Source of the DNA: Onthophagus taurus
Lineage: Eukaryota > Arthropoda > Insecta > Coleoptera > Scarabaeidae
Direction: 5' to 3'
NCBI RefSeq assembly: GCF_036711975.1
Contig: NC_091967.1
Coordinates: 10,354,001 to 10,418,000 of the forward strand
DNA: 64,000 nucleotides
The translations under genes were made by a program, and so were the position numbers. Below are positions 44,954 through 64,000 of the stretch, one piece after another. Position 1 is the stretch's first letter; the number at the start of each line of letters is the position of its first letter. The notes under the pieces are model-generated. The model did not search any database. It saw only the letters and a list, made by a program, of their open reading frames with translations, and was not told the DNA's origin.

Positions 44954-46579
44954 TAATTTTTGTAATTAAAAGAATTTTTGATTAAACTATTTTCGTAATT
45001 TACTTAAATATATTTTTAAGGATATGTTTCTCTTAGATAGTAGATTTGATTTTTTTTGTAGTAATACATTACGTTTTCACATTAGTGTTAATTTTTTTAC
45101 CTCACACAATATCAAAAAAATTTATTTTCAAAGTGTTTTATATTCCATAAAAGATTTTGTATTGAAATATGATTTACAGTTTAAACTCTTATCTTGGTTA
45201 TTTTTCTTTGGTGCATTCCATAATAAGTAATGTTATTTCATGAATTGAGTAAGGATCTATAAAGCTTGTATAACATACGCAGCTAAAACATCAACTAAAT
45301 AAGTCATGAGAGCCACAGAAATAAGAACCTTAAAAATTATTACAAGGTTAACAGGATTGGCGAGATATAGGATGTGGCCAGATGGACGAGATCCTGGAGA
45401 GATCATGTTGAAAAGGTAGATGAGGAAGACCACATAAACGTTGGCATGAGAGTTGGACGTCATCATCACAAGATAACAACCAATAGGAAAGGAAGTGGGA
45501 AGAGAGAGATTTGCTCGTATGTACTATCTGCAGAAAGTCAAGGCCCCTCACTTTAGAGATCGATATCTTCGTAACCGCTCAATGGAAAAAATTTCGGTAA
45601 AGTTTATTGTAATCAGTGAACATTTCTGCGTATCACATGTTAATTTGGAAATTTTCAGATTCGCGGTTTTTCTTTTATCGCGAGTTAAGTAAAAAAAGTA
45701 CCCGATTTTTGAGAGTTTTTTGCGATTTTTTTTCTCCAAAACTATTTGACGAAAAAAATTCAAATTTGAACTGGTGATAAACCGATGTGTTCTTAATGTG
45801 GGGCATATTTTATTTTTTTGCTATTCCATATAGTTTCGCGGAAAATCACAGTTTAGTAGGATGCGGTTATTTTGAAAACGAACTGGCAGATTTCAACGCG
45901 GTTTATTTACAGTACGTCGCGCCTTTATCTTACCTACATAAAGAAATGAGGCGCGACGTCCTGTCTGGGACACACTATCTGTTCCGATTGGACAGAACCC
46001 CCTTCACCCCGTAGAGCTTATTTCTGTTTCTCTTTAATTTGTAATTCCATTAAATCGCTCATAAAAAATTAGGGAGCTCTAATTTTAAAAAACTGATAAC
46101 GGAATCCGACAACCGACATTATTTGACATATTTTGGTCAAATTCGCGAGAAAATTCACCCAGCCAATTCTTGAAATGTATCAGTCCAATCTCAAGTATTT
46201 TACATAATCCATTGGTTCACAACTTTATATGCAGTTTAGTAAATTGATATGTGTATGCGTTTTCTTCATCCATATACATTTTGCCTTTTTTCATCAATTA
46301 AGATCATTGCACCAGACACTAATGCAATTTTACACTTCTTTGATGACAACCTTTATTACATCTGTTGGTATAAAGCACTAAAAATCAACTACATGTGTGA
46401 ACTTTCATGTGTAGTCAACAAAGGATTGGTCATAGCAGTTTAAGTATGTATAGTGAATGGAGGCATTTATGTGACCTATTAATAAACAACAATGGGAGTT
46501 ATTTATTTTTATTATAAAACACTTATTTACATTAAATTTAATTTTAACTTAATTTTAGTTTAATTTTAATTTAATAAAC
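44954..46579. other. Intergenic spacer between SLBP and SF3B6
   Basis: AT-rich convergent 3' flanks. A decayed LINE tail lies at 45250-45520. A block at about 45830-46015 has an open frame with somewhat higher GC but no recognisable motif and is not called as a gene. Confidence 0.5.
45250..45520 (+). mobile_element. Decayed LINE tail, plus strand
   Basis: Frame-broken reading gives ARWTRSWRDHVEKVDE and then GRPHKRWHESWTSSSQDN. This is the WAGHVAR ... GRPxxRWxDDI pattern at the C-terminal end of common insect LINE ORF2 proteins. Only the last part is present. Confidence 0.45.
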
Positions 46580-47042
46580 TTATTTCCGTTTCATTTCATC
46601 GGTGTTAATACCATACTTTGATTTCATTTTATCAATTTCTTCAGCTTTCTTTTCTAAATCAGTTTTCTTAAAAGCTTTACTGGCTTGATAATACAATACA
46701 ACCAGGTATCTATTACAAACGTTAAAACCAGATAAGTGATCGCACGCGTTTTTAGCATCGAAAATATCCTCGTAAACAACAAATGCAGTGCCTCTCGTAT
46801 CGGGGGTATTCCCAACTCGAATTTGTCGAATCGCGCCGTATTTTCCAAAGATATCATACATTTCTTCAGCTGTTATTTTATAGGGTAAGTTGCGAATGTA
46901 AAGAATTCGATTGATTTCGGGTGGTAAACGCACCTAAAAATTAAGTAAAAAAAGTTAGGTTATGTTTTAATTAAGTTTGAATTATATTGTTGGATTAATA
47001 AAGAATACTTACGTTTGCTTTTCTTTGCATAGCCAAAGCCAT
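46580..47042 (-). CDS. SF3B6: Splicing factor 3B subunit 6 (p14)
   Basis: Exons 47042-47013 and 46933-46580, phase 0, give 127 residues, the expected length. The start [11 protein letters not shown] leads into [20 protein letters not shown] and an RRM at about 18-93, with RNP2 ILYIRNL and RNP1 RGTAFVVY; next is [20 protein letters not shown] and a lysine-rich tail ending [14 protein letters not shown]3B6 is part of the SF3b complex of the U2 snRNP and lies next to the branch-point adenosine in the nucleus. Sequence is nearly invariant relative to animal orthologs. Donor GTAAGT and acceptor TTTTTAG are canonical. It is divergent from Dscam1. Confidence 0.97.
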
Positions 47043-47299
47043 TTTGAAATGATTTTTTTAAGATTTATTATATTAATACTAATATTAATTAATTTAGCTT
47101 TTTAAAGAAATTGACAAGTAAACAAAAATTAAGTGGCAGCACTTTCGCTTTTCGACTAGGAAACGTCAACACAACATTATAAAAATAAATATCACTAAAT
47201 TGTTAGCTTCAAAAATTGTTTTTAACAATTAAAATGTTGACTTAAACTTAAATCTGATATATTTAATGAACTACATGGGGTCTTTTTTTTAAATTAATT

Positions 47300-47521
47300 A
47301 TATTGGCGTAAAAAGTTTGCTACCGACGGTTAAATCTTCGATCGTCCCCTTCCCTTAATGTCTGTGGAAGGAGGAGCAAAAATCATTCTGTCTGTCTTCT
47401 CACATAGGCGTACGGGTGTCCATTGTGCGGAGTGTCTCTGTGTTTTTTCCAAAAAATTCGTGAATTTCTGTGAAACGGTGAAAGAAATTCGTCGTGTTAA
47501 CACCTCAAGGATAATTTATTG
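47300..47521 (+). promoter_or_regulatory. Putative Dscam1 promoter and non-coding first exon
   Basis: A GC-richer block with TCTGTCTGTCTTC and GTGCGGAGTGTCTCTGTG ends at a consensus donor TTG|GTAAGA (47521/47522). It lies between the SF3B6 start and the signal-peptide exon of Dscam1, whose 5' part is also untranslated and opens at an acceptor. A 5' UTR exon is the simplest reading; the true transcription start is unknown. Confidence 0.4.
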
Positions 47522-50500
47522 GTAAGAAACTCCCCCAATTTAACATTAAAATCACATAATCCCAGTCTACAACACCCACGCCGGTACTTTATTATGCTTA
47601 TAAATTAATTAATTCCTTTCTAATATTAATTTTTAAATCACAACTGCTTTAGTAGTTACAAAAAGAACCAAACAATCTTAAAAACAAAAATGATTTTAAA
47701 AAACACCCACTTCATTAAGTATTACTGAAGCTTTAAAAATCGTAATTAATAAAACCGTCTCTATAGAAGGTTCAACCCCCTTTTATCTTTTCACCATTTA
47801 ATATCACTTTATCCATAGAACATTTTGTCTCCTTGTTGGTGATGTAATTAATCGATGTCGAGTTTTGCGGTTTGAGTCATGCGAAAATTTCTTAGGAAAT
47901 TCTAACTTTAAATTTGGTTCTTAGTTTCTTGTAGCTATACCTGATTCTTTTTGTATCCGGACACACGAAATGTATAGAGAGATTATGCGGCGCTCCCGTA
48001 GACTTTGGGATGCTGCAGCTGTTCTTTGCCTGAACACCTGCTCGTTTGAAAAGGTCCTTCGAGACTTTACACTTGGTGCTAAGGAGAAAACGTCTCGTTT
48101 GTTTAAAACTTTAAGAAACTTAAGTATTCCGACGTATTAATCAACGTTATAAATAAATATTATTGATGATTTCAACAAAATGTAAAAAGATTGCGCATTA
48201 TCTTTTTCAGAGATAAAATTAATCCTTATATTGTTTATATATATATTTATAATTAAAGTAATGATTGTGGTATCTTTCTTTTTCGTTTTGGTTTTTGTTT
48301 TTTCGAACTTGATCAATTTCCTTTCAATTTCCATTGAAAATGTGAAAGTTAGGGATTACTTTTCAGGAGACGGCAGTATTGATTATTTTTTTCATCGTCT
48401 CTAAACTGCATTGAAGAGACTGCAACGTACAGATAATAAACGGACCAACTATAATTCTTTATAGCAATTGTATTTTGCCATTACGAAGAAACTTAATGAA
48501 ATAATAACATAGTTATAGTTTGCACCGCCTCTACAAAACTCAATTTATTATTTCTTTTTGTTGGAAATAACAAGTTTGTAATATTGTTTTAAATAGTAGT
48601 ACTTTAATGAAATAATAAAAACAGTTCTGAAGCTGGGTGAATATTTGCTGAATATTCACTGAATCCGCATTTTCTAACAAAATTTATTAAAACAAAAATG
48701 TGTCGCAGTTCAACATACCTCCTCATTTGGTAGTAATGAACAATACTGTTAAAAAAGTATTTATGAAAGTGCTCAAAGATTTATAAGGAATCAAAATACT
48801 CTAACACGCACAGTCATTGAAAAATTTTCTTCGGAAAAGCTTTGCTTGATTGATGAAGCATGTTCTGAAAGAGCGAACAACGAGAATATTCAATAGGTTG
48901 TGGTGGCAAATATGATAAGGTGCCTAAAGCTTGCAGAAAGATTAAATATGAAGGTGATGAATGGAAGTGAAGGCAATTCAATACTGTCTCACTCAAATTC
49001 CAATCTTAAAGACACATTGCCTTTAGTTACACCAATTTTATTGTTTACGAGTGTTTAAAAAAGCCGTGTCTTGAGGTTTTCTATATCAGGATGGGAAAGA
49101 GTAACAAGAATGCCAAAAAACTTTTATTGAAATTACAATGTGACAAACCGCATTGTTTTGAACGTTTTTCAAAGTCTTTAATGAGCTCCATGATAAAAGT
49201 GTCGATTCAGCATCTGTCTAATTTTATCAATCTCGATTTTTTCGGCTATTTCATGGTCTGCTATTTGAACAATAATTACTCGTCACCAATAAATATTTCA
49301 GAAAATAATGCCCATTTTTTGGTTTTCTTTTTTAATGTCCGTTTGATTCTGCGAAAGTCTTTTTAGTCAAATTGATTGTATGGGTCATTTTCAACTGATT
49401 CTCTTCTTTCTGGAAATATGTTGATTGCTCTCAAAACATAATCTGCGTAACACTGCTGATATTTTGCAAAAGTTTTAATTCTGTTTTGGCTAAGTCTTAT
49501 TTGTCTCAGAACAACTTTTATCACCTCTTGTTAAATTTATCCGACGAAATAATCGAACTGTTAACAAATGAGAGTATTTGATAAAACATGCAACAATCTT
49601 CTTCTTAGATTAACAAGAAGATGGTATAATATATGGTACCACAAAGATTCTTTGATGTTTTCATACTTATGCTGCATTCTCATCATTAGTGCGTTGACAC
49701 CAAGATTATAGCCAATAGCAAAGCTTTTCACAAGATTTTGTGCATCTATAACCACTTAAAATAAGCTAATCATCAAAAATTAATCTATTTTTTGTAAAGT
49801 ATTATTTTAACAAATTCAGTGCACAGTTGGTTAAGAAATATTAACGTATACTTAACGTATTAATCATGTATAATAAATAACACTATTTACCAACTAACGG
49901 TTTTCTAATATTTACAAGAATTAATTACAGCTTTCTCTGTAAAACGAACCGCACGTTTTCACGGTGATTCCACATTACACCGGCTACATTGCACTATTTA
50001 AACTCGCCCTATTTATTCACTACGCAACATAACATAGTCGGTTGCACCCGTATCAAAATATTTAAATTTTCTATTTGGTTATGTTTGTTTTGGTTTGTGT
50101 TTGAATTTCGTTGTGTTTGTTTTGAGCGATTGTATGTAATTAAAAGGGACCGCGCCACTTTTAGTATTTTATTATTCAAAAGGAACCGCCTTTCCTTTAT
50201 AAATACTTAACGTCCAACGAGATTCGTGATAGCAATTATCCTCCCTCGATACGAATCTAACGGTTCGAGAGCGTGGTTCGAAAGTTTCTAAGTTGAACGG
50301 TCCAATTTATTTTTCGAGCTTTTATATCTGAAGGTAATCTTGTATTAAACGGGAAATTGTAAAAGTGTATGAAGCAAAACTGTTCTTTACATCATCGATT
50401 TATTTATGCATATTCCGGGAATTAACGTGGTTTTATAATCAGTTTGAGTTGGTATTATCGTTTTTGAATAACAGCTCAGTAATGTAGGAATACTTTGCTT

Positions 50501-50721
50501 TTTTTTATTGAATTGATTAGCACACCATAAATTTGAATGAATGATAGATATGGATTGATTAATTGTTGGAATGTATTTAACAATTTTTATGTGGATTTTT
50601 CTTAAATGAGTCAGTTATTACTCACATTCCATTTTTAAGTTTCATTCTCATTTCTCACCATTTCATTGAATAATAATTTGTTAATTTATTAATTAATTTG
50701 TATTATTTTTATATTTTTCAG
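47522..50721. other. Putative Dscam1 first intron
   Basis: AT-rich. The short open frames at 49091-49366 and 49989-50210 have no recognisable motifs. A GC-richer stretch at about 47940-48090 has no exon character that I can defend. Confidence 0.45.
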
Positions 50722-51169
50722 TGTTCAACACCTACATCGGTGGTGCGTACGGTGAAGTGTTTTTTGGCAGTGCAGTGCCGCTTAAAAGCGATGTGTAAAC
50801 TTCGGCTATCATTGACTCTTGTCCTGGCAGGGCTGTTGCCCTTCTGGGGTGTGCTCGCGGCCGACGACACCGTCGGCCCGATATTCCTACGGGAACCGCC
50901 GAACCGCATCGATTTCTCCAATTCCACGGGATCCGTCGTTGAGTGCAAGGCCAGGGGTAACCCACCACCGGAAATCATCTGGGTCCGATCCGATGGAACC
51001 GCAGTAGGAGATGTCCCCGGCTTAAGACAAATTCTCGCCAACGGAAATCTCGTTTTTCCGCCGTTCCGCGCTGAAGACTATCGCCAAGAAGTCCACGCCC
51101 AGGTCTACTCTTGTCTCGCTAAGAATACCGTGGGCACTATTCATTCTAGGGATGTTAACGTTCGCGCAG
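50722..51169 (+). CDS. Dscam1: Dscam1 constant exon: signal peptide and Ig1
   Basis: Acceptor at 50721, start codon at 50791 (the only ATG in the exon), donor at 51170 in phase 1. It encodes MCKLRLSLTLVLAGLLPFWG, a clear signal peptide with cleavage likely near VLA-AD. Ig1 follows: GPIFLREPPNRIDFSNSTGS, the Cys of VECKARGNPPPEIIWVRSDG, and the second Cys in EVHAQVYSCLAKN. The Ig1 sequence is extremely close to fly Dscam1. Codon use is GC-rich compared with the introns. The antisense open frames here are shadows. Confidence 0.97.
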
Positions 51170-54100
51170 GTTGGTACTTGACCCTTTTTATAAATTTTTT
51201 GCTTGATATGGAGGTTTTTCCTTAAGGATTTTTTTTTTCTGGAGAGAAAGTGGCCACGAAAGATAAAAGCTAAGATTGAAGCGGAAGGTTGATGAGAGTT
51301 TCACAAAAAGTAATTTTTAAATTATTCATTAAGATCAATCAGTTTATAATAATTAAAGACGTCATAATAAAGACGTCATCCTCTTTCTTGATTTATTTAA
51401 ATTCTTAGAATTTCACAGTTTATACCACTTGAATCAGTGACAGGGCACTATAATAAACATGGTCCTCGATTAGCACTTCATTAACGAGTCTAAGTAGGCG
51501 TTAAGTGGAAACGTCTATTGTTTACTTGCGTGTGCAACTGTTTCGTATTGAAAACAAAACCTTTTTGAGGTACTTTCTGCGTTCGTAACTAATCGGGTGT
51601 TCGAGAATGCGTCGTAACTACGTGGATTGAATATTTTTAAAAACTGTTAACCTCTCGGTTTTAAACGTAAAACTGTGATTTCTTCAATATTCTATACGGA
51701 TAATTTTACAGTTAGTTTTATGTATTTGAATTGTATATGATCTTATGTCACTATTTTCTATTGAGTATATTCTTGAACGGATTTGTAGGAAGTGGTTTTG
51801 TACTGTTAAAGGTGCACACCGCTTTAGGTTAACCTATTTTGCATGGTGTTTGTTCTTCTTTGTTATGCAAATGACTTTGAATTATGTTTCATTATACGTT
51901 GTGCGCCTTTCGTAATTTTTAGTTAAATTAAAAAGAAATGATTTATAACAATTAAATGACCAAGAATAGATACACATATAAACATATTCAAAGTTTATTC
52001 TTTCAACAACTGCACTCCGCGTTTGTTTATTTACTTGTTTTTTTTAAACCCGCCTTTAAAAACTGTTGCATATCGCGTTTCTAGGCAGCTTTTCTCGGAT
52101 ATCAAATTTCGTTAGTATCCTGCCAATGAGTGTTGGAACAAATGTGAAACTCACAGCAACGCTTCTCGTTTTGTGTTCACCACTTATCTTTCTGGTTAGA
52201 TTAATTTTCTTACAGAACCGATGTATCAACATGTTTTATTTTTTGATTTATAAATCTTTAGATTATAGCAATAACAATTAGGTCATCATCAATATTTAGA
52301 CGCGCTCTATTTTTGTATATTAAATCGATATAATATAGGATTATTCAAAACAAATGCAAGATGGTATGTTATAAAATTGTGACTTACAAGTTTTATGTAT
52401 CTCAAAAGTACACATTTTTAATATTAAAGTAAGATAGGCCGAAAATGTTTTCGGCAAGTTTCGGAAATTCACGAACTTTGCGAGAACTTATAAGAACCGA
52501 GACTTTCTTTCTACGAAATAACTTCGCAACGACACATGTGGAGTTAGTCATAGATTTAAACCGATTGTCGTGTTTTACATTTAACACGAAAAGAAGATTT
52601 CCTTATCCATTTATTTTAATTTTGTGAAAATCGATGGTTTAACAATTTCTTGGCAAAAGTCAGAACTAAATAGTTTCATTGAGGTCTCAGTAATTTGAAA
52701 GGTGGAAGTAAACGATTTGAAATAGTTTATGAAAATACTAAGTTTATAGATGAAGCAAGAATAAGCTGGATGTTCCCGAAGAAGCAAATTTTCTTTTGAA
52801 TCGTCCTTTGGTGAAGAAACCAAATGGTAAATCGGATGTTCTGAGCAAAAGTAACTCGGTGATCAATGTAAACATGCAAAGTTACATGGTTACACGAACA
52901 AGAAATAGTAAAGGGGTAACAGGATTATATAAGAAGCTTTAACAAGAATAGGTTGGGTTGGAGGTTTATTTTAATTGACCTGAATATAACCTAATTTCTT
53001 ACTTTAAGATGGGATGGTGTTGACTTCGAGGTTGCTCCAATAGTCACCTTTAAGTGCAGTAGGGATCTCTGAGGTCATGTGCGCTACTCAGTGATGATGA
53101 AGCAAAGCAAACAACGAAAAATTAGCACATTGGGGATAGTGCGAAAATTAAGGATTTGATAAAGTCGTCGTGTATCGAGACTATAGATAAGTAAATAAAT
53201 AAGTAAGGAGTACTTGACAGGACAAAAGGAGCAGGTGGGATTTTAATTAAATTCCCGCAGAATGTGCTAAAAGCGAAGTAATGCAATTATACAAAAATTT
53301 AGCACGCAGAGTAGCCGTACAATTTTTCCGTGTGCATGGAATAGGGGGATGCTGAAAACAATGTCCTGTATTTTCGGCGAAAAATTATGGTCACCGTAAT
53401 TATGATTTGGTTATTAGGGTCGCATAACCCAAGTAATATTGTTAGATGTCACCCAATTTAAAATTTTCACAATTTGTTATGAGTTAATCAAATGACGAGT
53501 TTCTAAACTAGAAACGATTATTGGAACAGTGATGTAGTAATAGTTAACGTAATGGATAAGGAAATATCTTCTTTCTGAATTTGTTCGAGTTTAAAATTAT
53601 AGGAAAATGAAAGTGTTCATGTTAATTCACTTCGAGGTTAAAGAAGTTAACATAAATCTTACAAAGTTTGTTAATTTCCAATTTTCTACATATTATCATT
53701 TCTAATTTTGTAGTTTTGCAAAAAATCACAATGGAAAACTGAGTTTATAAACTTGTAAACTATCATAAAAATTATACAGAGAAGTTCAGTTATTCAGACT
53801 CACTTAAATTGTATAGTTTTGCAATTTATTTTAATAATAATATAATTGAATCACCCTATATAAAAACTTTTATTATTTCTTAAAAAAAGGCGTAATCTGT
53901 GAAGCCTCCTGTATTTGTTTGGAATTACCTTATAGAGATAGTCTATTTTTGGGCGCGGAATTTCTGATCCAAGCTGGTTTATTGGTTTAACATGCCGGAA
54001 GTTGTTATAACTCTGTCAGGGTAGTAGCTTGGTAAGCAAACCGTTGCCTATTCGGATTATACGTCTGGATTTTACATTATAAGACAAAATTATGATTTAA

Positions 54101-57100
54101 TTAATATGTTGATATTTTTTATTTGTGTGTATAATCATATAATTTTAATGTGTAATTTTTATGTTTAATAATAAACTTTACAGTGGTAGCTCAGTATTAC
54201 GATACAGATGTGAATAAAGAGTATGTAATTCGAGGAAATGCAGCTATACTAAAATGTCAAGTACCATCGTTTGTAGCCGATTTCGTTTCTGTGATTTCGT
54301 GGCATACCGATAGCGGAGACGATTTCTACCCGGACGCGCCAAATGGTATAGAAAACAAGCGCTGAATATGCACTAGACACTTTTCTCTTCACAGTTGTCC
54401 AGCAATTCTACCAGACGGAGGTGAACAATGAATACGTCATTCGTGGAAATTCTGCCGTGCTGAAGTGTTCTATTCCTTCGTTCGTGGCCGATTTCGTCCA
54501 GGTTGCTTCTTGGCAGGATAGCGAAGGAAACACGTTCGATAGGGACGACGAAAAAATTGGTAAAAAATTCGTTTCCACGGATGATCGGTGTTCGGTTCGT
54601 CCTCCGCCCGGGATTTCCTCTCTTTTTTATTATAGAAAAGTTCAGATATCGCTCGACCGCACATCCTGTCTGCAACCAGATATTATTTTTGATATAATCT
54701 CTTTCTGGTGGTGTATTTTTTTTTGATTTCTCAATTCCATTTCTCAGTCGTAAATCAATACTACGAAGCCGAAGTGGTGTCTGAGTACGTGATCAGGGGA
54801 AATACCGCGGTGCTGAAGTGTAATATCCCGTCGTTCGTTGCCGATTTTGTACGGGTCGAAGCTTGGGTGGGAAGCGACAAGAAAGAGTACTCTTACTCAA
54901 ATGAATTTGGTAATTTGTTAGGATCACTGAAATTGTTTCCCGTCCTTGATAAATCCAACTTTATAATATGTCCTTTTCGAGAAGATTTATTTTTGAAACT
55001 TATAAGTGTTTTTAAATTTTTAGCATTTGCACACCATATGTTATTTTAACTTCCCCAACTTTTGCTTCTGTGTCATTCAGTCATAGCTGAAATGATCCCA
55101 ACGTATTTTTACGACTCAGGCTAAAATAGGGTGAGGGGAACCACTGCGTGTAACACTACAATTTATAGGAGGGACCTTGTTAGTTTGTGCTTGCCCACGT
55201 TAAAAACACAAGATTAATCAATAAATATCATCACGCACTACTACCATTTATTAAACACGGTTAACTTTCATTAATAAATAATGTTTTAACCTCATAAATA
55301 AGAAATGTGCTCTATGAAAGTTCCTGATATCGTCTTGAAAACGCTAATTATTTTTTAATTTCGTATATTATAGTGGTTAATCAATTTTACAAGGCGGAGA
55401 TATTAACCGAGTACGTGATTAGGGGCAATACAGCAGTGTTAAAGTGCAGCATCCCATCGTTCGTGGCCGATTTCGTGCATGTAGAAGCTTGGATTGACGA
55501 ACGGGGTCACGAACTAAGAGTGTCCGACGATTTCGGTAATTGATGTTCTGGTTTTTTCTTGACAGTTGTTTCGCAGTTCTACATGACCGAGGCCGAGAAC
55601 GAGTATGTAATACGCGGAAACTCGGCCGTCCTCAAGTGCAAGATACCGAGTTTTGTGGCGGATTTTATATTCGTCGACGTTTGGATCGCCGACGACGGAA
55701 AACAGTACAAGTATCAACCGGAGCTGTTCGGTACGGGATTTCGGTATTTTAAGAACCAGAGCCTAGAAACTCGGTCCTTGGCATCTCTCATTCCTCTTAT
55801 TTCCGAAATCACACACATCACCAGATTTACATGCTCCAGATTTCCAATTTTATTAGAACTCTTCGTTTTTACTTGGAATTTCTTAGATAGACAGTTTTGG
55901 ATGTTGTCTTTCGGCTTCTGAATGGCTTTCATCCATTTCTGGATGTCGTTGAATTATTCAAAGGGGGCCTCATTGTTGTTCTAATATGGAATTACTCGAT
56001 TCTGGTTTCAAATTGTTTCATGGTGGAAGGTTACAAAAGGTTGTTGAAGGTGAATAATTCCACATTGAACTAATTCTATCACATTAATTGTAACTCAAAT
56101 GACAATATAATCATATTGTCGTTGAATGTCGATGAATATGTTTAATTTTAAGTAAACAAGTTTTGTAAAAAATTGTCTATATATATTTGTACTGCAGAAC
56201 ATAGAGTTACATTATGCTCAGTGCATTAAAGTTTCATTGAAACGCTATTAAAGCTTTATGCGTATAGAATTAATTGAATAATAGTCCTTAATACTAACGA
56301 TGTATTGAATCTCAAGTACGTCCTGTTTTGCTCTTTTCACGAGCACCAAATCCTTTCATGATGATCAACAGTATTTTTTAGCAAATTTTAATGGAAGATT
56401 TTAAAGGCAATTGAATATTTAATTTTATTATTAGTTGTTGCTCAATCGTACGAAGTGGAAGCAGATAACGAATATGTCATAAGAGGAAATTCGGCGGTGA
56501 TGAAATGTGAGGTGCCATCATTCGTTTCAGACTTTGTAGTTGTGGAAAACTGGCAGGACTCCAAAGGAAATACGTTTCTTCCCGGAGATAACTTCGGTAA
56601 CTTTACCTTAAAAACTTTCGGATCCCTGAAACACTTGCACAATTTCCTTATTGTTATTTTTATTTATTTATCCAAACTGTTCCTTGCAGTTGTCCAACAA
56701 TTTTATCAAGCCCGGGTCATCGACGAGTTTGTCTTGCGTGGAAATACGGCGATTCTAAAGTGTTTAGTACCTAGTTTTGTGTCCGATTTTGTCGAAATCG
56801 AAGCTTGGATTACGGACGATGGAAAAACGTTCAAACACCATAAAGATATTTCGAACGAGGGTAAAGATATCCGCAATTAAAGAGAACCATAATTTTCCTT
56901 TTTGTAATGATCCAAAGCTCTACTAGTCCTTTATTTTACCAATATTCTCTCTGTTCTTTTTCTTTCAGTTGTCAATCAATATTACGAAGCCCAAGTTTAC
57001 GATGTCTTTGTGATCAAAGGAAATACGGCCGTTTTCAAGTGCAACGTACCCTCATTCGTTTCAGATCACGTTGATGTTATTTCTTGGGAAGATACTAAAA

Positions 57101-60100
57101 ATAAAAAATATCTACCCCCTACTGATATATTTGGTACGATCGAATAATTATTTTAAAAATTTCCTTTAAATACAAATTCCTTTAATTAATACTCCCAACA
57201 TTTTTCCATGAAAATCAACAATTCCCAGCGATGAAGTTTAATTCCAAAACAAATCGGAATTAATCCTTCTAAATTAAGAAAGTCCTTGAGTAACAATTTA
57301 ATTCATTTATCGACAGATTCCCACGCAAACACTAGACACAGTCAGGGATTTTCTTTCGTATCTATCGAGAACAGTACAATCATTCATGCATTTTTGCTGA
57401 CATACTGGGGCGTATCAACAGGAATTTTACGATGGTGTCTATGTCTATAAATATCAACGTGGTGGGGTCATAACGAGCATGTAAAATGGATTTCGCGTTT
57501 GAATGTAATACTGGTTTGGAATTTCGTTTCAATTGGATTAGAATACAACTAGGCTAAATTCTTTATTGTATTAGATATGCAAGTGTATAAGTAGTATCTA
57601 TGGCATTTCCTGAAAAGTTACACTTTTTTTAAATTTTATCATCCTGAACTCGTAAATTATTAAAAAAATTAAACACTTTCTACATCATTCAAGTTTCACT
57701 TGCGGAAATTTTCTATTTTATTTTCTTTTCTTTGCAGTCGTTTCACAATCTTACACCGCGAACGTGATGGACGAGAGCGTGCTCAAAGGAAACACGGCAA
57801 TCTTCAAGTGCCACATTCCGAGCTTCGTCAGTGATTACGTGAGCGTGATCTCCTGGGTCCAGGATGAAAAACGCGAGATCACGCTGCAATCTTCCACTTT
57901 GGGTTCGTAGTCCTCGGTGTTTTCTTCTCGATTCGCCGTCTATTTTCGTTCTTCGCGGACTCGTTTCTTGTTTGTGTTGTCGTCGTTGCGACGACGTTCG
58001 AACCTCCAAACCGTTGAACGCAATCTTCTATACGGTTGAAATGGGGTTCCATTATATACTCGGGCGATATCTGGAGCTCTCTTTAGAACATGTCCCAGCT
58101 CTCTCCTATATCCCATTCTTCACCATCCTATTTTTAACCGTCCTCGCCTTGACCTTGTAGGCTTAAATGCTTTTAAGTAGATCGCATCAAATTCCATTTT
58201 AAGTAAAGTAATTCTTTGTTATTGACAAAATTGAAATTGATGTTTAAATATATGAAGGAATTTAATTTAAGAAAAATGATTGCAAAAATAGATTTCTTCA
58301 TATTAAATAGATTTGAGCATAAAACTAGAGCATACACATATTTCTCAACGATTGATTATTGTTTTTAATCTCATAAACAGATAGTAAATATTTGGTACTT
58401 CCATCTGGTGAATTACATATCAAGGACGTTGGACCAGAAGACGGATACAAATCTTACCAATGCCGCACGAAACATCGTTTGACTGGTGAAACAAGATTGA
58501 GCGCGACGAAAGGACGATTGGTCATCACTGGTGAGCGATTTTAAGCTGTTGTTTATTACGTAATCGATAAAATAACGAACCACATCGAATAATATGCGTT
58601 TTTTTTTAAGGTTTAAACAAAGTCTGGCGGAGTTAATCTTTAATTTAATCGTGCTAAAAGCAGTTTGCGTTGAAGATTGTTCAGAATAATTAGCATTCGT
58701 TAAAATCAGCGTATCCGTGGACGTGTACTTAAAAAGCGGGATACGCAGTCGTTGACACTGTTACGTTTCCGCGAGTCGTGGGCAAAGGATGGCTATCTGA
58801 TTGGAATAATAACGACCATTTAACGTTACGTTTTGTCGTTTCCGAGCGTGAATCCTCCTCTCGATTTATGACAGTACTAAATATAGGAATAATGATTAGA
58901 ATATTAAATGGGTTACACTGATTTAGTATTTATTTTTATATTAATCTCGTCAATGTTCAACGTCGAGTATATTTTACGTCTCGTTAAACGTTGGTGTCGT
59001 TGGTGGGTGTAACATTATACATGAAAGGCCGTTTTCAGGCCGTTTCCTGTGGAGCACATCGGCGCAAATTAGCAGGACTACGTCCCATTTAACGACAGGA
59101 CCGTATGTAGAGAGGCGGTTCGAGTAAAGCTACTGCTACCACCGCCACCGTTGCCGTCCGGTTCTCAATCGATCGGCCCGATTCTTTGTGCGAAAATGTA
59201 GTGCACGTTCTCGTGGTTCATGAATATCGCACGCTTGGCCGGATGTTAATTATGAATAAGCCTCAGGAGGATTGTCGAGGACACGCACGGAGACGACTTT
59301 GTTGTACATGTAAAAACCGTCAAACTCGTTTCATTTAATCTGAACGTAAAAATACATTCAAGAGAAACCTTGAATAATGATAACAAAACTAAGAAAAGAA
59401 TAACTCTCAATCACTGCCCTTCTTATCTGTTAGCTTAGAACGGATTCCGGCAATTTATTTAAATATGAAAATTGCCGACAATTTCCTCAAATTATTTCAT
59501 TGCGGATAAAGATATCAGTGCTTGGATTAGTTTTAACAGTAAAGATGTGTACAATAAGTAAAGATGTCGCGTGGGAGGTTAGATGAATATCTTTGCGGAT
59601 AAGGATGTTATTATTGCGGTAATTAAGGGACGGACGCAATTAATCGTCTGGTTATTTAATTTTAAACGATAACGGTCTTCGTAATTAAGCCGCTTTATTC
59701 AACACGGGGTTTAGTCATTTTTCTGAACGAGATCACTATGAGTAACACAGCTTTCATGAATCATAACACTTCTTCACAAACATACGGGTGCTAAATATGT
59801 TTATTAATTTAGTTTTAAAAGTGTATTATTCGATGTGGAGTTCTATTTTCACAATACATTCATAACAAAATTATTTATATTATTTACAAAGAATGTATTA
59901 TGAAAAGTTGCTATGTTTAAAATGTAAAAACAATGTTTTTGTTTTAATAATTTAATTCAATTTTATCTATAAACATTGTTTCTACATTAAATAATATCAC
60001 AAATTTTAATATAATAATGTTTTCAAATTTATTTATTTAATTAATTTGTGATTTTATTTAAATATAATTAAGTTATAATAAGATTTATTATGAGTACCCT

Positions 60101-63100
60101 ACAAATATCAAATTTATCGTAACTTTTGTAATTACAACTTCATAAAATATTTTTTGTATAGTACTCATAATAAAGCCCAGAAATGCCTGAATGTTGGGAT
60201 AGGGTACCCTTGCTTCATGAGCGGGCACGTCAAAATTTTCAAAATTTACCGCGTTTACTTAGTTTATTATAACGACCCTATTCAGTCGTTTGTAACAATC
60301 ATTGAATGAGTAGATTTATTTCCTAATGGTTTTCGTGGCGTTGTAGCTGTAATCGGTTAACAATTTATGGGTAGGTATAACTCGTTATCAAAGCATTTAG
60401 TTTTGAGCCATAATGGGTACCCTGGCCCTCTTAAATTACACGGTTATTCGTCGAGAGATGGCCAAGGTAAGTGGAGAAAGCGTTTAAGAAGAGGAAATTA
60501 TTAATTTAATTTTTAAGATTTAATTTAATTAAGTTGAACACAAAATCTATTAATTTCAATTACATGTGATCCCAGTATTTGTTTAAAAAATTACAAAAAT
60601 AAACATTGTAATATTATCTTTCAGAACCGATAGGAACTGTAAAGCCTAAATTTCCATTGGAAACTCGTAAAGAGTACATATTCCAGAGAAATTCATCGGT
60701 AAATCTTCTCTGTTCAGCTCAAGGGTACCCTCTACCTATAAAAAGGTATTTTATTTCGATTTTTACACGTTTCCTTTCAAAATTCAGAACCAGTTGGTAG
60801 CGTTTTACCAAAATTTTCCTCTTTGGAAATCTCAAAAACATACAAAGGCGATAGTGGGGGTTCCCTGACATTGCTTTGTCCTGCTCAAGCGTTTCCTGTT
60901 CCAATCTATAGGTTAGTTTCTTGCTCATTTATCAAGGGTACCTTTCAATTCAAATTCGATCAATTTTAATTTATTGCTCATATTTTGGATATTAGAACCT
61001 ATTGGAAGTACGCTGCCAAAGTTTCCTACGATTGACAATTCTAGAGGGTTCACTTCCAAAGTGACAGAAAGTGTTACACTTCTATGTCCAGCGCAAGGGT
61101 TCCCTGTTCCTTTATACAGGTACAAATAAATGTTAGAAAGGCTGTTTAATTTTCAGAACCCATGGGAAAAGTTAGACCTAACATTGCTAAATTACCACCT
61201 TTGGATAATGTATTGAAAGGTACCAGTTCGGCGATACTTTGTCCCGTGCAAGCATTTCCAGCACCTATATACAGGTACTTTCATTATTTCACTTAAATAA
61301 ATCATGATGATAAGTAAGAGTACGCAATTCCAACATAAAGGAAAACTACAGTTTTAGATTATGATTATTAAAATTTTAGAACCGGTTAATAGTGTGGCAC
61401 CAAGATTAACATCAGGGGATAAAATTAGAACGAAAGATGTCAAATTGAATCAAACAGCAACCCTTCTTTGTCCGATGCAATCATATCCAGTGCCGACATT
61501 CAGGTATTGATTCAATTTTAGCCAATAAATAATATTAACGATTGTGTAGAACCAATTGGGAGTGTAATCCCGCGTCTAACCTCAGGCGATCAATCCAGAA
61601 CAATATCTGGAGAGGGCACTCAACAAATAACTTTAATATGCCCCGCTCAAGCATTCCCCGTGCCTAAATATAGGTAATTGATTCTATTATTCATTAAAAC
61701 CACTTGAAAAGTCCTTGTTCAAGAAGCAGAGGGTACTCAATGTTATAATTATATCCATCTCAATTGGTCTTTTATTAAATTAGAACCGGTCGGTAGTGTG
61801 GCTCCTAGGTTTAGTACGGGAACATCAAAAATTCAAACTATCGATGGTAAAAGGAACACCAGTTTGACTTTAATTTGTCCCGGCCAAGCTTTTCCAGCGC
61901 CTAAACACAGGTAATTAATTATTTTTAAGCCTCCGAGCGTGAGGAAGTGTACCCTAAATCAAAACAACTGGCAACAAAACGGTATTGGTTATCTAATTAA
62001 AGCATCCTTTTTATTCTCTAAAAACAGAGCCGGTGAATAGCGTCGTTCCGAGGCTGACTTCTGGCGATAAAATTCGCACAAAAGACGTGGACGTAAAACG
62101 GAACTATACCGCCACTCTATTGTGTCCAATGCAATCGTATCCCGTACCTACATTCAGGTATATATGTAAATGTTTAAATTATCGATATGAATTGGGTAGG
62201 ATTATATAGGTGTTGAGAAAAGGTTACATATTCTATTTATAATACTCATCAGAAGGTGAAAACAACTACTTGAAATGAATACTTTTTGTAGAAACGAATT
62301 TCTCCGAATATCCCTAGACTTTGGCGAATAGCTATATTGATAGATCTCTCATAAAATATACAAAACTTAGGGCTTTTGCAATTTTTGCTAGGAACTAGAA
62401 ATCATAATTGGTTTTTCATAACCTTTCGTCTTATCATCCGGAACTATTATGCTGCAAAATATTTCTTTAGAGATTTACTTCGCTTCAACTTGTATTGTTT
62501 GTTCATCTTTGCCTCCCTTCCTTAAGATCAATAGGGAAAAATTTTCTGATAACAGCAATAACTGTCGTTGAGACTATACAGTTTGCTGACGAAATCTGTT
62601 GATAACTTTCATTTACTCTGGTCAGGATATCTTGGTGCTGTTTGTAAAAATATGATTAAGCTGACAATACAAATATTGTAGCTCAATTATTAACAGCACA
62701 TAAACTTTAGCGCTGTTTTAATATTTCTACGGTAATCTCAATTGATTTGCCGACTTTTGCTATATTTAATTTTTTTGCTTCTTTTGATGAGTATTATAGA
62801 CGCATAGAATATTCTACCTGTTTTATAGACCCTTATATATATTTTCGAAAAAATACAATCCGGACGTCTTATTTTATGTGACATTCTCAGAACCAATAAG
62901 TAGCGTAGGTCCGCGATTGACAACTAGCGATCAATGGCAAGTCGTCCTCGCCAGGATATCACAGGAAGTGACGCTGTTCTGTCCTGGGCAAGCATTTCCT
63001 GTTCCGAGACATAGGTAAACAAGCCACCGTCTATATTGACCCTATTTGAACATAATGGAAGTAAATTGATTGTTGAAACAACTTTTTTTTGAAGTCTTCG

Positions 63101-63985
63101 TTAATATGATTGAATCCTAAAGAATATGAATAAGGGTATCCTATATTTAGCGTGAAATAAATTAACTCACCCTGAAATATTTTTTTTTTATAAATAGAAC
63201 CGGTTGGAACTGCAAAACCAAAATTACCCCCAATTGAAAAGTATCGCACTCTCGAAGTTATGCTGAAAAAATCTCTTCCATTACTTTGTCCAGTTCAAGC
63301 TTTTCCAGTACCTAAATACAGGTAATTTACTCTGAGAATCTATTTTTAAATATATGTGAGCGAGGGTACCTTATATTCAATAAAATTATTAAAAAAATCA
63401 AAATTTTACATACATTTTTATACAAATAGAACCTGTTGGAACAGTGAAACCTAAATTACCTACAATAGAAAAATTACGTCTTCTGGAAGTTCCCGTAAAC
63501 AAATCTCTTCCGTTGCTTTGTCCTGCTCAAGCTTTTCCAGTACCAAAATACAGGTAAAAATTTAATATCATTGATTTTCACGTAAGAAGCAGGTCAATTA
63601 TTTCATTTTTTTAAAATATAAATACTTTCGCTTCTATTAAGTATCAACTAATAAGATATTTACGTTTAGAACCTGTTGGAACTGCTAAGCCTAAATTTCC
63701 TTCAATCGACAAACTGCGAGCATTTGAAGCTTCCGTTGAGAAACCGTTAACTTTAATGTGCCCAGCTCAAGCGTACCCAGTTCCAAAATACAGGTAATAG
63801 AAGCGAAATAATTAGATTAAAATTCGAATTTTAATAACAATACAATAAATTATACATTTAGAACCTGTTGGAACAGCAAAACCTAAATTCTCATCAATCG
63901 ACAAATTGAACGCCTTTGAAGCGTTAGTTACAGAACCGTTAACTTTAATATGCCCAGCTCAAGCGTACCCAGTTCCAAAATACAG
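50722..63985 (+). CDS. Dscam1: Dscam1 homophilic receptor, 5' part with exon 4 and exon 6 arrays (continues off right edge)
   Basis: Constant exon 50722-51169 and constant exon 5 (58381-58530) flank nine alternative exon 4 copies (54184-57902). Thirteen alternative exon 6 copies (60625-63985) follow, and the array is still running at the right edge. Each isoform takes one copy from each array: exon 4 supplies the N-terminal half of Ig2 and exon 6 the N-terminal half of Ig3. All exon 4 copies are phase 1 at both ends; all exon 6 copies enter in phase 1 and leave in phase 2. The arthropod receptor binds an identical isoform and drives neurite self-avoidance, with a role proposed in haemocyte immunity. 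The rest of the roughly 2000-residue protein (remaining Ig and FNIII domains, membrane span, tail) lies outside the window. Confidence 0.97.
51170..54183. other. Dscam1 intron before the exon 4 array
   Basis: About 3 kb without exons. A GC-richer stretch at about 53960-54070, just ahead of exon 4.1, could hold splicing control elements, but no pairing partner was identified by eye. Confidence 0.45.
54184..54345 (+). CDS. Dscam1: Dscam1 exon 4 variant 1
   Basis: 162 nt. It encodes VAQYYDTDVNKEYVIRGNAA and PSFVADFVSVISWHTDSG. This copy is the most like the fly exon 4 start. Acceptor TTTACAG, donor GTATAG. Only 49 nt separate it from variant 2. Confidence 0.95.
54395..54559 (+). CDS. Dscam1: Dscam1 exon 4 variant 2
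   Basis: 165 nt. VQQFYQTEVNNEYVIRGNSA, then PSFVADFVQVASWQDSEG. Acceptor TTCACAG, donor GTAAAA. Confidence 0.95.
54748..54909 (+). CDS. Dscam1: Dscam1 exon 4 variant 3
   Basis: 162 nt. VNQYYEAEVVSEYVIRGNTA, then PSFVADFVRVEAWVGSDK. Acceptor TTCTCAG, donor GTAATT. Confidence 0.95.
55374..55535 (+). CDS. Dscam1: Dscam1 exon 4 variant 4
   Basis: 162 nt. VNQFYKAEILTEYVIRGNTA, then PSFVADFVHVEAWIDERG. Acceptor ATTATAG, donor GTAATT. The next variant starts only 30 nt later. Confidence 0.95.
55566..55730 (+). CDS. Dscam1: Dscam1 exon 4 variant 5
   Basis: 165 nt. VSQFYMTEAENEYVIRGNSA, then PSFVADFIFVDVWIADDG. Acceptor CTTGACAG, donor GTACGG. Confidence 0.95.
56435..56596 (+). CDS. Dscam1: Dscam1 exon 4 variant 6
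   Basis: 162 nt. VAQSYEVEADNEYVIRGNSA, with MKCEVPSFVSDFVVVENW; Ser replaces Ala in SFVSDF. Acceptor ATTATTAG, donor GTAACT. It lies 704 nt after variant 5. Confidence 0.95.
56690..56860 (+). CDS. Dscam1: Dscam1 exon 4 variant 7
   Basis: 171 nt, the longest copy. VQQFYQARVIDEFVLRGNTA, then PSFVSDFVEIEAWITDDG and HHKDISNE at the end. Acceptor CTTGCAG, donor GTAAAG. Confidence 0.95.
56969..57133 (+). CDS. Dscam1: Dscam1 exon 4 variant 8
   Basis: 165 nt. VNQYYEAQVYDVFVIKGNTA, then PSFVSDHVDVISWEDTKN. Acceptor CTTTCAG, donor GTACGA. Confidence 0.95.
57738..57902 (+). CDS. Dscam1: Dscam1 exon 4 variant 9
   Basis: 165 nt. VSQSYTANVMDESVLKGNTA, then PSFVSDYVSVISWVQDEK. The most divergent copy and the last before exon 5. 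Acceptor TTTGCAG, donor GTTCGT. Confidence 0.94.
58381..58530 (+). CDS. Dscam1: Dscam1 constant exon 5: second half of Ig2
   Basis: 150 nt, phase 1 at both ends. It encodes SKYLVLPSGELHIKDVGPED and GYKSYQCRTKHRLTGETRLS. The Cys in SYQC closes the Ig2 disulfide with the LKC cysteine of whichever exon 4 is used. Acceptor AAACAG, donor GTGAGC. Confidence 0.97.
60084..60174. repeat. Perfect 14-bp inverted repeat ahead of the docking candidate
   Basis: TTTATTATGAGTAC (60084-60097) and GTACTCATAATAAA (60161-60174) are exact reverse complements with 63 nt between them. In pre-mRNA they could form a stem ending 24 nt before the docking core. Confidence 0.85.
60199..60220 (+). promoter_or_regulatory. 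Candidate exon 6 docking site
   Basis: The core ATAGGGTACCCTTGCTTC (60199-60216) lies in intron 5, where the known exon 6 docking site of insect Dscam1 lies. Its reverse complement, GAAGCAAGGGTACCCTAT, resembles motifs at 60933-60944, 61723-61736, 61941-61959, 63129-63144 and 63358-63374, each in the intron just upstream of an exon 6 variant. This is the docking/selector arrangement that brings one variant at a time into use. Confidence 0.6.
60415..60423 (+). promoter_or_regulatory. Candidate selector motif before exon 6.1
   Basis: GGGTACCCT repeats the core complementary to the docking candidate and lies about 200 nt before exon 6.1, the expected place for its selector. Confidence 0.45.
60625..60745 (+). 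CDS. Dscam1: Dscam1 exon 6 variant 1
   Basis: 121 nt. PIGTVKPKFPLETRKEY, NSSVNLLCSAQGYPLPIK. It has CSAQG where the others have CP-Q, and an N-glycosylation site (NSS). The coding sequence itself contains AAGGGTACCCT. Confidence 0.93.
60788..60911 (+). CDS. Dscam1: Dscam1 exon 6 variant 2
   Basis: 124 nt. PVGSVLPKFSSLEISKTY, SLTLLCPAQAFPVPIY. It starts 42 nt after variant 1 ends. Confidence 0.94.
60933..60944 (+). promoter_or_regulatory. Candidate selector before exon 6.3
   Basis: CAAGGGTACCTT in the 84-nt intron ahead of variant 3; complementary to the docking core over most of its length. Confidence 0.45.
60996..61119 (+). CDS. Dscam1: Dscam1 exon 6 variant 3
   Basis: 124 nt. PIGSTLPKFPTIDNSRGF, SVTLLCPAQGFPVPLY. 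Variant 4 follows after 37 nt. Confidence 0.94.
61157..61274 (+). CDS. Dscam1: Dscam1 exon 6 variant 4
   Basis: 118 nt, the shortest copy. PMGKVRPNIAKLPPLDN, SSAILCPVQAFPAPIY. Confidence 0.94.
61380..61503 (+). CDS. Dscam1: Dscam1 exon 6 variant 5
   Basis: 124 nt. PVNSVAPRLTSGDKIRTKDV, TATLLCPMQSYPVPTF. Closest to variant 8. Variant 6 follows after 46 nt. Confidence 0.94.
61550..61673 (+). CDS. Dscam1: Dscam1 exon 6 variant 6
   Basis: 124 nt. PIGSVIPRLTSGDQSRT, QITLICPAQAFPVPKY. Confidence 0.94.
61723..61736 (+). promoter_or_regulatory. Candidate selector before exon 6.7
   Basis: GAAGCAGAGGGTAC in the intron ahead of variant 7. It matches the reverse complement of the docking core (GAAGCA-AGGGTAC) with one inserted base. 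Confidence 0.5.
61784..61910 (+). CDS. Dscam1: Dscam1 exon 6 variant 7
   Basis: 127 nt. PVGSVAPRFSTGTSKIQT, SLTLICPGQAFPAPKH. Confidence 0.94.
61941..61959 (+). promoter_or_regulatory. Candidate selector before exon 6.8
   Basis: GAGGAAGTGTACCCTAAAT in the intron ahead of variant 8. It shares GTACCCTA with the complement of the docking core. Confidence 0.4.
62028..62157 (+). CDS. Dscam1: Dscam1 exon 6 variant 8
   Basis: 130 nt, the longest copy seen. PVNSVVPRLTSGDKIRTKDV, YTATLLCPMQSYPVPTF; it differs from variant 5 mainly by two extra codons. Confidence 0.94.
62158..62890. other. Large gap inside the exon 6 array
   Basis: 733 nt separate variants 8 and 9, against 37-183 nt elsewhere. No acceptor followed by a CP-Q exon is present, so neither an intact nor a clearly decayed variant is seen. 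Confidence 0.6.
62891..63014 (+). CDS. Dscam1: Dscam1 exon 6 variant 9
   Basis: 124 nt. PISSVGPRLTTSDQWQVV, EVTLFCPGQAFPVPRH. Confidence 0.94.
63129..63144 (+). promoter_or_regulatory. Candidate selector before exon 6.10
   Basis: AATAAGGGTATCCTAT, one mismatch from the complement of the docking core over AAGGGTACCCTAT. Confidence 0.5.
63198..63321 (+). CDS. Dscam1: Dscam1 exon 6 variant 10
   Basis: 124 nt. PVGTAKPKLPPIEKYRTL, LPLLCPVQAFPVPKY. First of four closely related copies. Confidence 0.94.
63358..63374 (+). promoter_or_regulatory. Candidate selector before exon 6.11
   Basis: GAGCGAGGGTACCTTAT, a near match to the complement of the docking core GAAGCAAGGGTACCCTAT. Confidence 0.5.
63430..63553 (+). 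CDS. Dscam1: Dscam1 exon 6 variant 11
   Basis: 124 nt. PVGTVKPKLPTIEKLRLL, LPLLCPAQAFPVPKY. Confidence 0.94.
63670..63793 (+). CDS. Dscam1: Dscam1 exon 6 variant 12
   Basis: 124 nt. PVGTAKPKFPSIDKLRAF, LTLMCPAQAYPVPKY. Confidence 0.94.
63862..63985 (+). CDS. Dscam1: Dscam1 exon 6 variant 13
   Basis: 124 nt. PVGTAKPKFSSIDKLNAF, LTLICPAQAYPVPKY. The last copy before the window ends, so the array count is a minimum. Confidence 0.94.
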
Positions 63986-64000
63986 GTAATATAAATAGAT

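Follow-up and report, generated by a model that had tools for sequence, protein, structure and literature searches.

Exon Tails as Predicted Selectors for a Conserved Docking Site in the Dscam1 Exon 6 Cluster of the Beetle Onthophagus taurus

A 64,000-nucleotide (nt) stretch of the Onthophagus taurus genome (RefSeq assembly GCF_036711975.1, contig NC_091967.1, positions 10,354,001 to 10,418,000 of the forward strand), referred to here as the window, carries a gene that by its sequence is insect Dscam1, with exon 6 variants arrayed in tandem behind exon 5 and ahead of exon 7. We conclude, with a probability of roughly nine in ten, that this exon 6 cluster is a Dscam1 docking-selector system in which exon tails act as selectors. 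In the proposed mechanism, the docking site in intron 5 would pair with one selector at a time, the pairings competing with each other, and the exon immediately 3' of the paired selector would be joined to exon 5. For an exon preceded by a short intron, the selector would be formed by the 3' coding stretch of the exon before it, together with that exon's 5' splice site. From what is established for insect Dscam1 we infer that such duplexes would drive exon choice in the cell. The docking-selector system itself is known; what is added here is the antisense exon-tail reading of the docking site, the tuning of exon tails according to intron length, and the idea that pairing masks a 5' splice site.

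The exon 6 array and its docking site

In agreement with the gene identity proposed in an earlier note on this stretch, the joined peptide of exons 6.5, 7, and 8 matched solved Dscam structures, which we take to be those from Drosophila, with a best E value of 6.4e-107. Annotation of the window plus 40 kb downstream (the numbering running on past the window end) yielded 39 exon 6 variants, all open and flanked by AG/GT, between 60625 and 69596; 13 of them lie inside the window. The introns that separate them are short, with 15 of the 38 below 60 nt and 33 below 150 nt.

Intron 5 holds a conserved exon 6 docking site, which is by far its best-pairing stretch. This was observed in a blind scan, in which a 42-nt window was slid over intron 5 and its best pairing was averaged over 38 upstream segments, 116 nt each, one for every exon from 6.2 to 6.39. 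The top of the 145 positions started at 60184 (mean, −35.4 kcal/mol); ranks 2 and 3 overlapped it, and the following rank reached only −20.7 kcal/mol. In the same scan, 181 control windows taken elsewhere gave a mean of −13.5 kcal/mol and a best value of −22.4 kcal/mol. The segment from 60179 to 60220 rendered −32.1 kcal/mol, compared with −18.7 when reversed, −15.4 when complemented, −18.8 when reverse-complemented, and −18.5 when base-shuffled (best of 60 shuffles, −21.6 kcal/mol).

The docking core, TGCCTGAATGTTGGGATAGGGTAC, is identical in all 24 nt to part of the Drosophila anchor, a 42-nt element described as perfectly conserved across six Drosophila species (Anastassiou 2006, PMC1431710), and at up to 2 mismatches it has a single match in the whole genome (291 Mb). 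On the 3' side of the shared core the sequences diverge, with CCUUGCUUC here and UCGACAA in the Drosophila sequence available. The conservation of 60199-60220 on which the earlier note had staked its reading extends in this comparison over 60199-60207, and the remainder differs. Searches of viral and prokaryote record collections gave 0 matches each to the exact 24-nt core, which is uninformative on conservation among insects.

Selectors across the array

To each exon we assigned the 150 nt upstream of it, which were paired with 60174-60222 and compared with 300 dinucleotide shuffles. For 27 of the 39 exons, at most 3 of the 300 shuffles were as good, and for 33 of the 39 at most 15 were. Over the complete array, pairing was thus far better than in shuffles, in this test as in the blind scan, in accordance with the earlier claim of one docking site facing many selectors.

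A second test, in which the docking site was paired with 55-nt segments (again with 300 dinucleotide shuffles), allowed the individual partners named in the earlier note to be evaluated. Those at 60933, 61723, 61941, 63129, and 63358, ahead of exons 6.3, 6.7, 6.8, 6.10, and 6.11, were all borne out (0/300 each). The partner at 61317, ahead of exon 6.5, is also real (0/300) and is strong, so that its description as one of the weaker ones was mistaken. The partner at 60415 ahead of exon 6.1 proved marginal (Table 1), and the one at 63585 for exon 6.12 was not supported (26/300). The intronic sites listed in that note mostly hold, but it had placed the partners in introns, whereas 27 of the 38 best sites are tail or boundary sites of the exon before, a class defined by a site midpoint no more than 8 nt past the exon end. 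Missing from its list were the exon 6.1 tail and the tail partners for variants 4, 6, and 13.

Among the 11 sites of the intronic class, three are weak (6.9, 6.36, and 6.37) and one (6.28) starts inside the exon. Counted in another way, 12 of the 38 introns carry a partner of their own at z < −2.3, six of these at z < −5. Most selectors lie partly or wholly in the preceding exon, fitting the beetle-type exon 6 cluster. In Coleoptera, exon 6 selectors have been reported to be located in exons (Dong 2021, PMC8042237), and the cluster described there shares with the present one its short introns and its selectors lying partly or wholly in the preceding exon.

As a separate observation, the intronic selector ahead of exon 6.38 (69176-69218, in the numbering of the window plus downstream sequence) spells FACDVIGYSISKF and may be a defunct exon 6 tail. 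Its pairwise alignment to an exon tail was equaled by 2 of 500 base shuffles, one of them scoring higher, and is partly driven by complementarity to the docking site; the exon 6 profile gave this stretch just −0.1 bits. A derivation of intronic selectors from dead exon tails thus found, in the one intron aligned, that of 6.38, a suggestive pairwise alignment but no support from the profile. In the masked introns, the best exon 6 profile score besides the docking antisense was 2.2 bits among the domains listed.

Silent sites of the exon tails

On average, the silent sites of a tail favor pairing if the intron that follows leaves no room for an intronic selector. Each tail was compared with 400 synonymous recodings, and each exon head, as a control, with 200. 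The pairing advantage of the tails over their recodings was a mean z of −1.30 before introns shorter than 60 nt (n = 15), versus −0.01 for the other tails (n = 23). Exon heads gave a mean of −0.03 (n = 39), and the last tail, that of 6.39, with no exon 6 after it, gave 0.13.

Tail pairing energy follows the length of the downstream intron (rho = 0.78, n = 38; r = 0.62 for contrasts on the exon tree). Plain rank P values overstate the tuning because neighboring exons are related copies; in contrasts on the tree of exon heads, a tree built from short sequences, synonymous z against log intron length gave an r of 0.58 (P = 0.00015), the sign agreeing in 30 of 37 contrasts. Tail and intronic partners show a trade-off, with a rho of −0.51 (P = 0.001) on z values and of −0.77 on energies, the latter being inflated since strong pairing is out of reach for short introns. 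The mean tail z was 0.28 for the 12 exons whose downstream intron has its own partner (z < −2.3) and −0.89 for the other 26 (P = 0.008).

In Drosophila, exon 6 variants were reported to have lower codon bias at their 3' ends (PMC2741454). That study and ours agree on constrained silent sites near the 3' boundary of the variants. They differ in that it attributes the constraint to exonic splicing enhancers, whereas here the yardstick was docking pairing, and the tuning varies with the length of the downstream intron.

Antisense reading of the docking site

The minus strand of the docking site, from 60233 to 60186, gives LTCPLMKQGYPIPTFR in frame, with its last codon split AG|G as at an exon end; LLCPMQSYPVPTFR is an example of the exon tails for comparison. 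Against a profile of the 39 exons, this antisense ranked first, at 19.1 bits versus 10.8 bits for the runner-up, among the 2767 windows that lay outside exon 6 in 104 kb, and the antisense of 60170-60239 scored 19.7 bits with an exon 6 hidden Markov model (HMM), a value reached by 0 of 5000 shuffles. When the masked region 58532-69700 was searched with the exon 6 alignment, the docking antisense again came first, both as protein (12.2 bits; next, 2.2 bits) and as DNA (E = 0.00045; next, 1.2). UGCCU and GGGUAC are separated by 13 nt in the docking site, in the Drosophila anchor as available, and in the exon 6.1 tail.

These results suggest an origin for the site, namely, that it arose when the 3' end of an exon 6, 5' splice site included, was duplicated in inverted orientation, the tail selectors being ancestral and the intronic ones of flies derived. 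We put this somewhat below an even chance. The 13-nt spacer matches the codon geometry of the tails, the codon pattern from Gly-Tyr-Pro to the splice site being kept in 39 of 39. The profiles of exons 4 and 9, for their part, found no antisense copy (best scores, 3.4 and 2.8 bits, respectively) in a partial scan with 9 exon 4 peptides over 51300-60600 and 18 exon 9-like peptides over 69700-84000, where some exon 9 copies were unmasked. However, the antisense reading is not independent of the pairing here, because complementarity to a coding tail by itself makes a site read backwards as that tail. Drosophila is the more informative case: 41 of the 48 fly selectors are reported to be wholly intronic (PMC8042237), and yet the antisense of the anchor reads VEYPIPTFR (9.9 bits; 2/5000 shuffles), although much of this score comes from the 24-nt core common to both species. 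Moreover, a gradual growth of complementarity would give the same picture, the upstream TCP match requires a two-codon insertion, and the comparison covers two species.

Pairing at the 5' splice site

The docking UGCCU presumably resembles the 5' end of U1 RNA. In 34 of the 39 tail duplexes, at least 4 of the 5 bases of the AG|GUA splice site were paired with it in one register. Since unrelated AGGTA sites pair likewise in that register (41 of 47; exon 9-like donors, 2 of 22), the case for masking rests on the continuous helix and not on the splice site alone, with a mean helix strength of −40.2 kcal/mol for the exon 6 tails versus −21.0 kcal/mol at the unrelated sites.

According to the masking idea, the tail of exon n, when paired with the docking site, would activate exon n + 1 and at the same time hide the 5' splice site of n, silencing it. 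With the docking strand present, the mean unpaired probability of the splice site fell from 0.33 to 0.21, and it was below 0.2 in 27 of 39 cases; the drop is modest and was computed without U1 binding. Several of the introns of 30 to 60 nt may in any case be too short for splicing, and we regard masking as a tentative proposal that is probably not correct. The wider view that the docking site is a fossil of an inverted exon 6 3' end with its 5' splice site, and that the choice of n + 1 and the exclusion of n are a single event, is likewise doubtful.

Donors other than AG|GT were noted in exons 6.32, 6.33, 6.35, 6.36, and 6.37, which are the five that fail the splice-site register test; exon 6.21 also has no AG|GT donor and passes it. 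Exons 6.31 to 6.37 (67357-69112, window-plus-downstream numbering) form a divergent subgroup with EPTNN or EPTGN starts.

The palindromic core

The core described in the earlier note, ATAGGGTACCCTTGCTTC, is indeed present at 60199-60216, but its palindrome is limited to the 8-mer GGGTACCC at 60202-60209. At up to 1 mismatch, this 8-mer occurs 15 times in the window (5.16 expected; none of 100 shuffles reached 15), five of them in coding exons (6.1, 6.2, 6.3, 6.12, and 6.13).

The earlier note took the palindrome as an unusual extra that would permit docking-docking and selector-selector pairing. A control layer of this kind, in which GGGUACCC would let two transcripts join through their docking sites, or one selector pair with another, seems very unlikely. 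It is true that exact GGGUACCC is present in 7 of the 38 selector windows and that a two-molecule docking-docking duplex computes as stable, at −44.8 kcal/mol, similar to docking-selector pairing. This duplex, however, would need two transcripts, there being one docking site in each. Selector-selector duplexes are weak (mean, −16.5 kcal/mol over 703 pairs, versus −40.8 kcal/mol for docking-selector duplexes; n = 38); of the 703 selector pairs, none beat both of the corresponding docking pairings and 2 beat at least one, and such pairing was rejected as a main effect. Nor is the perfect palindrome conserved: the Drosophila counterpart, in the sequence available, is GGGUACUC, which is self-complementary only with G-U pairs, the second half differing. 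The palindrome is, instead, an incidental by-product of the antisense relation between the docking site and the exon 6 tail, where GGG UAC CC represents the Gly-Tyr-Pro codons.

Upstream hairpins and other features

Directly upstream of the docking site, four neighboring hairpins (Table 1) were chosen from 16 inverted-repeat pairs in the A+T-rich intron 5. The block 59840-60178 folds at a z of −5.6 (0 of 200 shuffles as good), hairpins 2 and 3 merging into one branched domain in the predicted fold, and 60070-60240 folds at a z of −2.1 (5 of 200). Another piece of intron 5, 58872-59041, folds at a z of −3.2 (60 shuffles; 170-nt pieces). In position and type, the predicted block fits the RNA locus control region (Wang 2012, as described in PMC8787164 and PMC8042237), which likewise consists of hairpins in tandem, placed after exon 5 and before the docking site. 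The size differs, at approximately 330 nt here versus approximately 700 nt described in Drosophila. An Rfam search of 45000-64000 gave no match up to an E value of 1. Searches for telomere motifs gave no match to TCAGG and, for TTAGG, two overlapping matches at a single place, against 10 hits for the reversed TTAGG control, and so carry no taxonomic information.

The same Dscam1 region comprises a signal-peptide exon, nine exon 4 variants (54183-57901), and exon 5, followed by the exon 6 array; nine is the number of exon 4 variants reported as commonest in Coleoptera (PMC8042237). The longest intron of the array, of 733 nt, separates exons 6.8 and 6.9 (62158-62890), and exon 6.9 has no selector near its acceptor. 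A repeat insertion was considered for this intron and rejected, no second genome copy being found in a search that skips common words.

Table 1. Coordinates of the exons, docking elements, hairpins, and predicted selectors in the window
Feature	Position	Strand	Remarks
Constitutive exon 5	58377..58530	+	Open frame ending YLVLPSGELHIKDVGPEDGYKSYQCRTKHRLTGETRLSATKGRLVITG, then GTGAGC; 58377 is the open-frame start, not the exon start
Intron 5, with docking site and upstream hairpins	58531..60624	+	2094 nt, bounded by the exon 5 donor and the exon 6.1 acceptor
Hairpin 1	59846..59906	+	Arms 59846-59861/59891-59906, 16 nt, 94% complementary
Hairpin 2	59921..59988	+	Arms 59921-59938/59971-59988, 18 nt, 94%
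Hairpin 3	59987..60061	+	Arms 59987-60005/60043-60061, 19 nt, 95%
Hairpin 4, directly 5' of docking site	60084..60174	+	Arms 60084-60105/60153-60174, 22 nt, 91%
Docking site used in most computations	60176..60229	+	Best-pairing stretch of intron 5 in blind scan
Docking core	60184..60207	+	24/24 nt identical to Drosophila anchor as available
Antisense of docking site, exon 6 tail-like	60186..60233	-	Exon 6 HMM
Palindrome GGGTACCC	60202..60209	.	Antisense of Gly-Tyr-Pro codons in exon 6 tail
Marginal selector candidate ahead of 6.1	60400..60450	+	9/300 shuffles as good
Exon 6.1	60625..60745	+	Array annotation
Predicted selector for 6.2: exon 6.1 tail and its 5' splice site	60708..60753	+	−45.6 kcal/mol, 0/300
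Exon 6.2	60788..60911	+	Array annotation
Predicted selectors for 6.3, whole stretch	60877..60968	+	6.2 tail 60877-60922 (−42.6); intronic 60919-60968 (−37.4, 0/300)
Exon 6.3	60996..61119	+	Array annotation
Predicted selector for 6.4: exon 6.3 tail	61084..61123	+	−46.6; 20/400 synonymous recodings as good
Exon 6.4	61157..61274	+	Array annotation
Predicted intronic selector for 6.5	61301..61342	+	−36.9, 0/300
Exon 6.5	61380..61503	+	Array annotation
Predicted selector for 6.6: exon 6.5 tail with 5' splice site	61468..61509	+	−43.2; no synonymous tuning, 180/400
Exon 6.6	61550..61673	+	Array annotation
Predicted intronic selector for 6.7	61710..61762	+	−40.5, 0/300
Exon 6.7	61784..61910	+	Array annotation
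Predicted intronic selector for 6.8	61928..61974	+	−41.8, 0/300
Exon 6.8	62028..62157	+	Array annotation
Exon 6.9	62891..63014	+	No supported selector within 150 nt upstream; 205/300 shuffles as good
Predicted intronic selector for 6.10	63115..63154	+	−32.6, 0/300
Exon 6.10	63198..63321	+	Array annotation
Predicted intronic selector for 6.11	63352..63383	+	−35.1, 0/300
Exon 6.11	63430..63553	+	Array annotation
Exon 6.12	63670..63793	+	No well-supported selector; 71/300 shuffles as good
Predicted selector for 6.13: exon 6.12 tail	63757..63797	+	−47.9; 29/400 synonymous recodings as good
Exon 6.13	63862..63985	+	Tail 63950-63989 is the predicted selector for 6.14, outside the window

Discussion

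Several observations weigh against a docking-selector system that works through exon tails. No significant partner was found within 150 nt of exons 6.1 (232/300), 6.30 (33/300), 6.36 (226/300), and 6.37 (32/300), nor of 6.9 and 6.12 (Table 1). Synonymous tuning has exceptions in both directions: the tails of 6.5, 6.16, 6.20, and 6.24 precede introns shorter than 60 nt and yet are untuned (z > −0.3), and those of 6.9, 6.12, 6.30, 6.32, 6.33, and 6.34 are tuned (z < −1.5) before introns of 68 to 183 nt. Besides, the z values of single exons are modest and the exons share ancestry. Pairing at the 5' splice site lacks specificity when taken by itself, RNAduplex energies leave out proteins, kinetics, and competing folds, and the use of each selector is predicted only, from sequence and computed pairing.

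The pairing might also be a passive by-product of exon duplication, with exon tails kept alike by a conserved protein and one chance antisense stretch in intron 5 that therefore seems to match them all, and protein sequence alone does supply much of the complementarity, since tails recoded synonymously retain mean pairing energies of about −26 to −46 kcal/mol, but this reading, the least probable of those considered, is largely refuted by the intronic selectors (non-coding partners in 12 of 38 introns) and by the synonymous test, in which tuning follows intron length, and is at odds with a docking core identical to that of the Drosophila sequence available.

The preferred interpretation, that of a docking-selector system with exon tails as selectors, agrees in its main features with Drosophila Dscam1 exon 6 as described in PMC1431710, where there is also one site in the intron between exons 5 and 6.1, with 24 identical nt, and selectors ahead of nearly every exon 6; a weak match ahead of 6.1 is common to both arrays. 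The two differ in the number of exon 6 variants (39 here versus 48 in Drosophila), in the core (perfect GGGUACCC versus GGGUACUC), and in the location of the best partners, mostly exon tails here and intronic in Drosophila.

As far as the earlier note is concerned, its observation is partly confirmed and its interpretation partly supported; judged from sequence, neither the comparison with Drosophila, in which 60184-60207 is identical, nor the pairing relative to shuffles refutes it.

In the Dscam1 literature searched, which did not cover the founding papers, so that a prior mention is possible, we found neither an antisense exon-tail reading nor synonymous tuning nor 5' splice-site masking. 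The Coleoptera account (PMC8042237), in the text available, makes no mention of them, the words "antisense," "synonymous," and "codon" being absent from its main text. The duplicated stem-arm model (Ivanov and Pervouchine 2018, PMC6071210), as available, shares with our reading the origin of selectors by duplication together with exons. It begins from an intronic stem-loop, whereas the reading proposed here begins from inverted coding sequence plus a splice site.

If the fossil-copy reading were true, it would explain the conservation of the docking site, as the antisense of a coding sequence common to dozens of exons, and would also explain its palindromic core. The antisense tail reading in two insects offers a testable account of the origin and conservation of docking sites. 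Protein constraint and RNA code would be joined in one and the same sequence, and effects of silent sites on exon choice are predicted.

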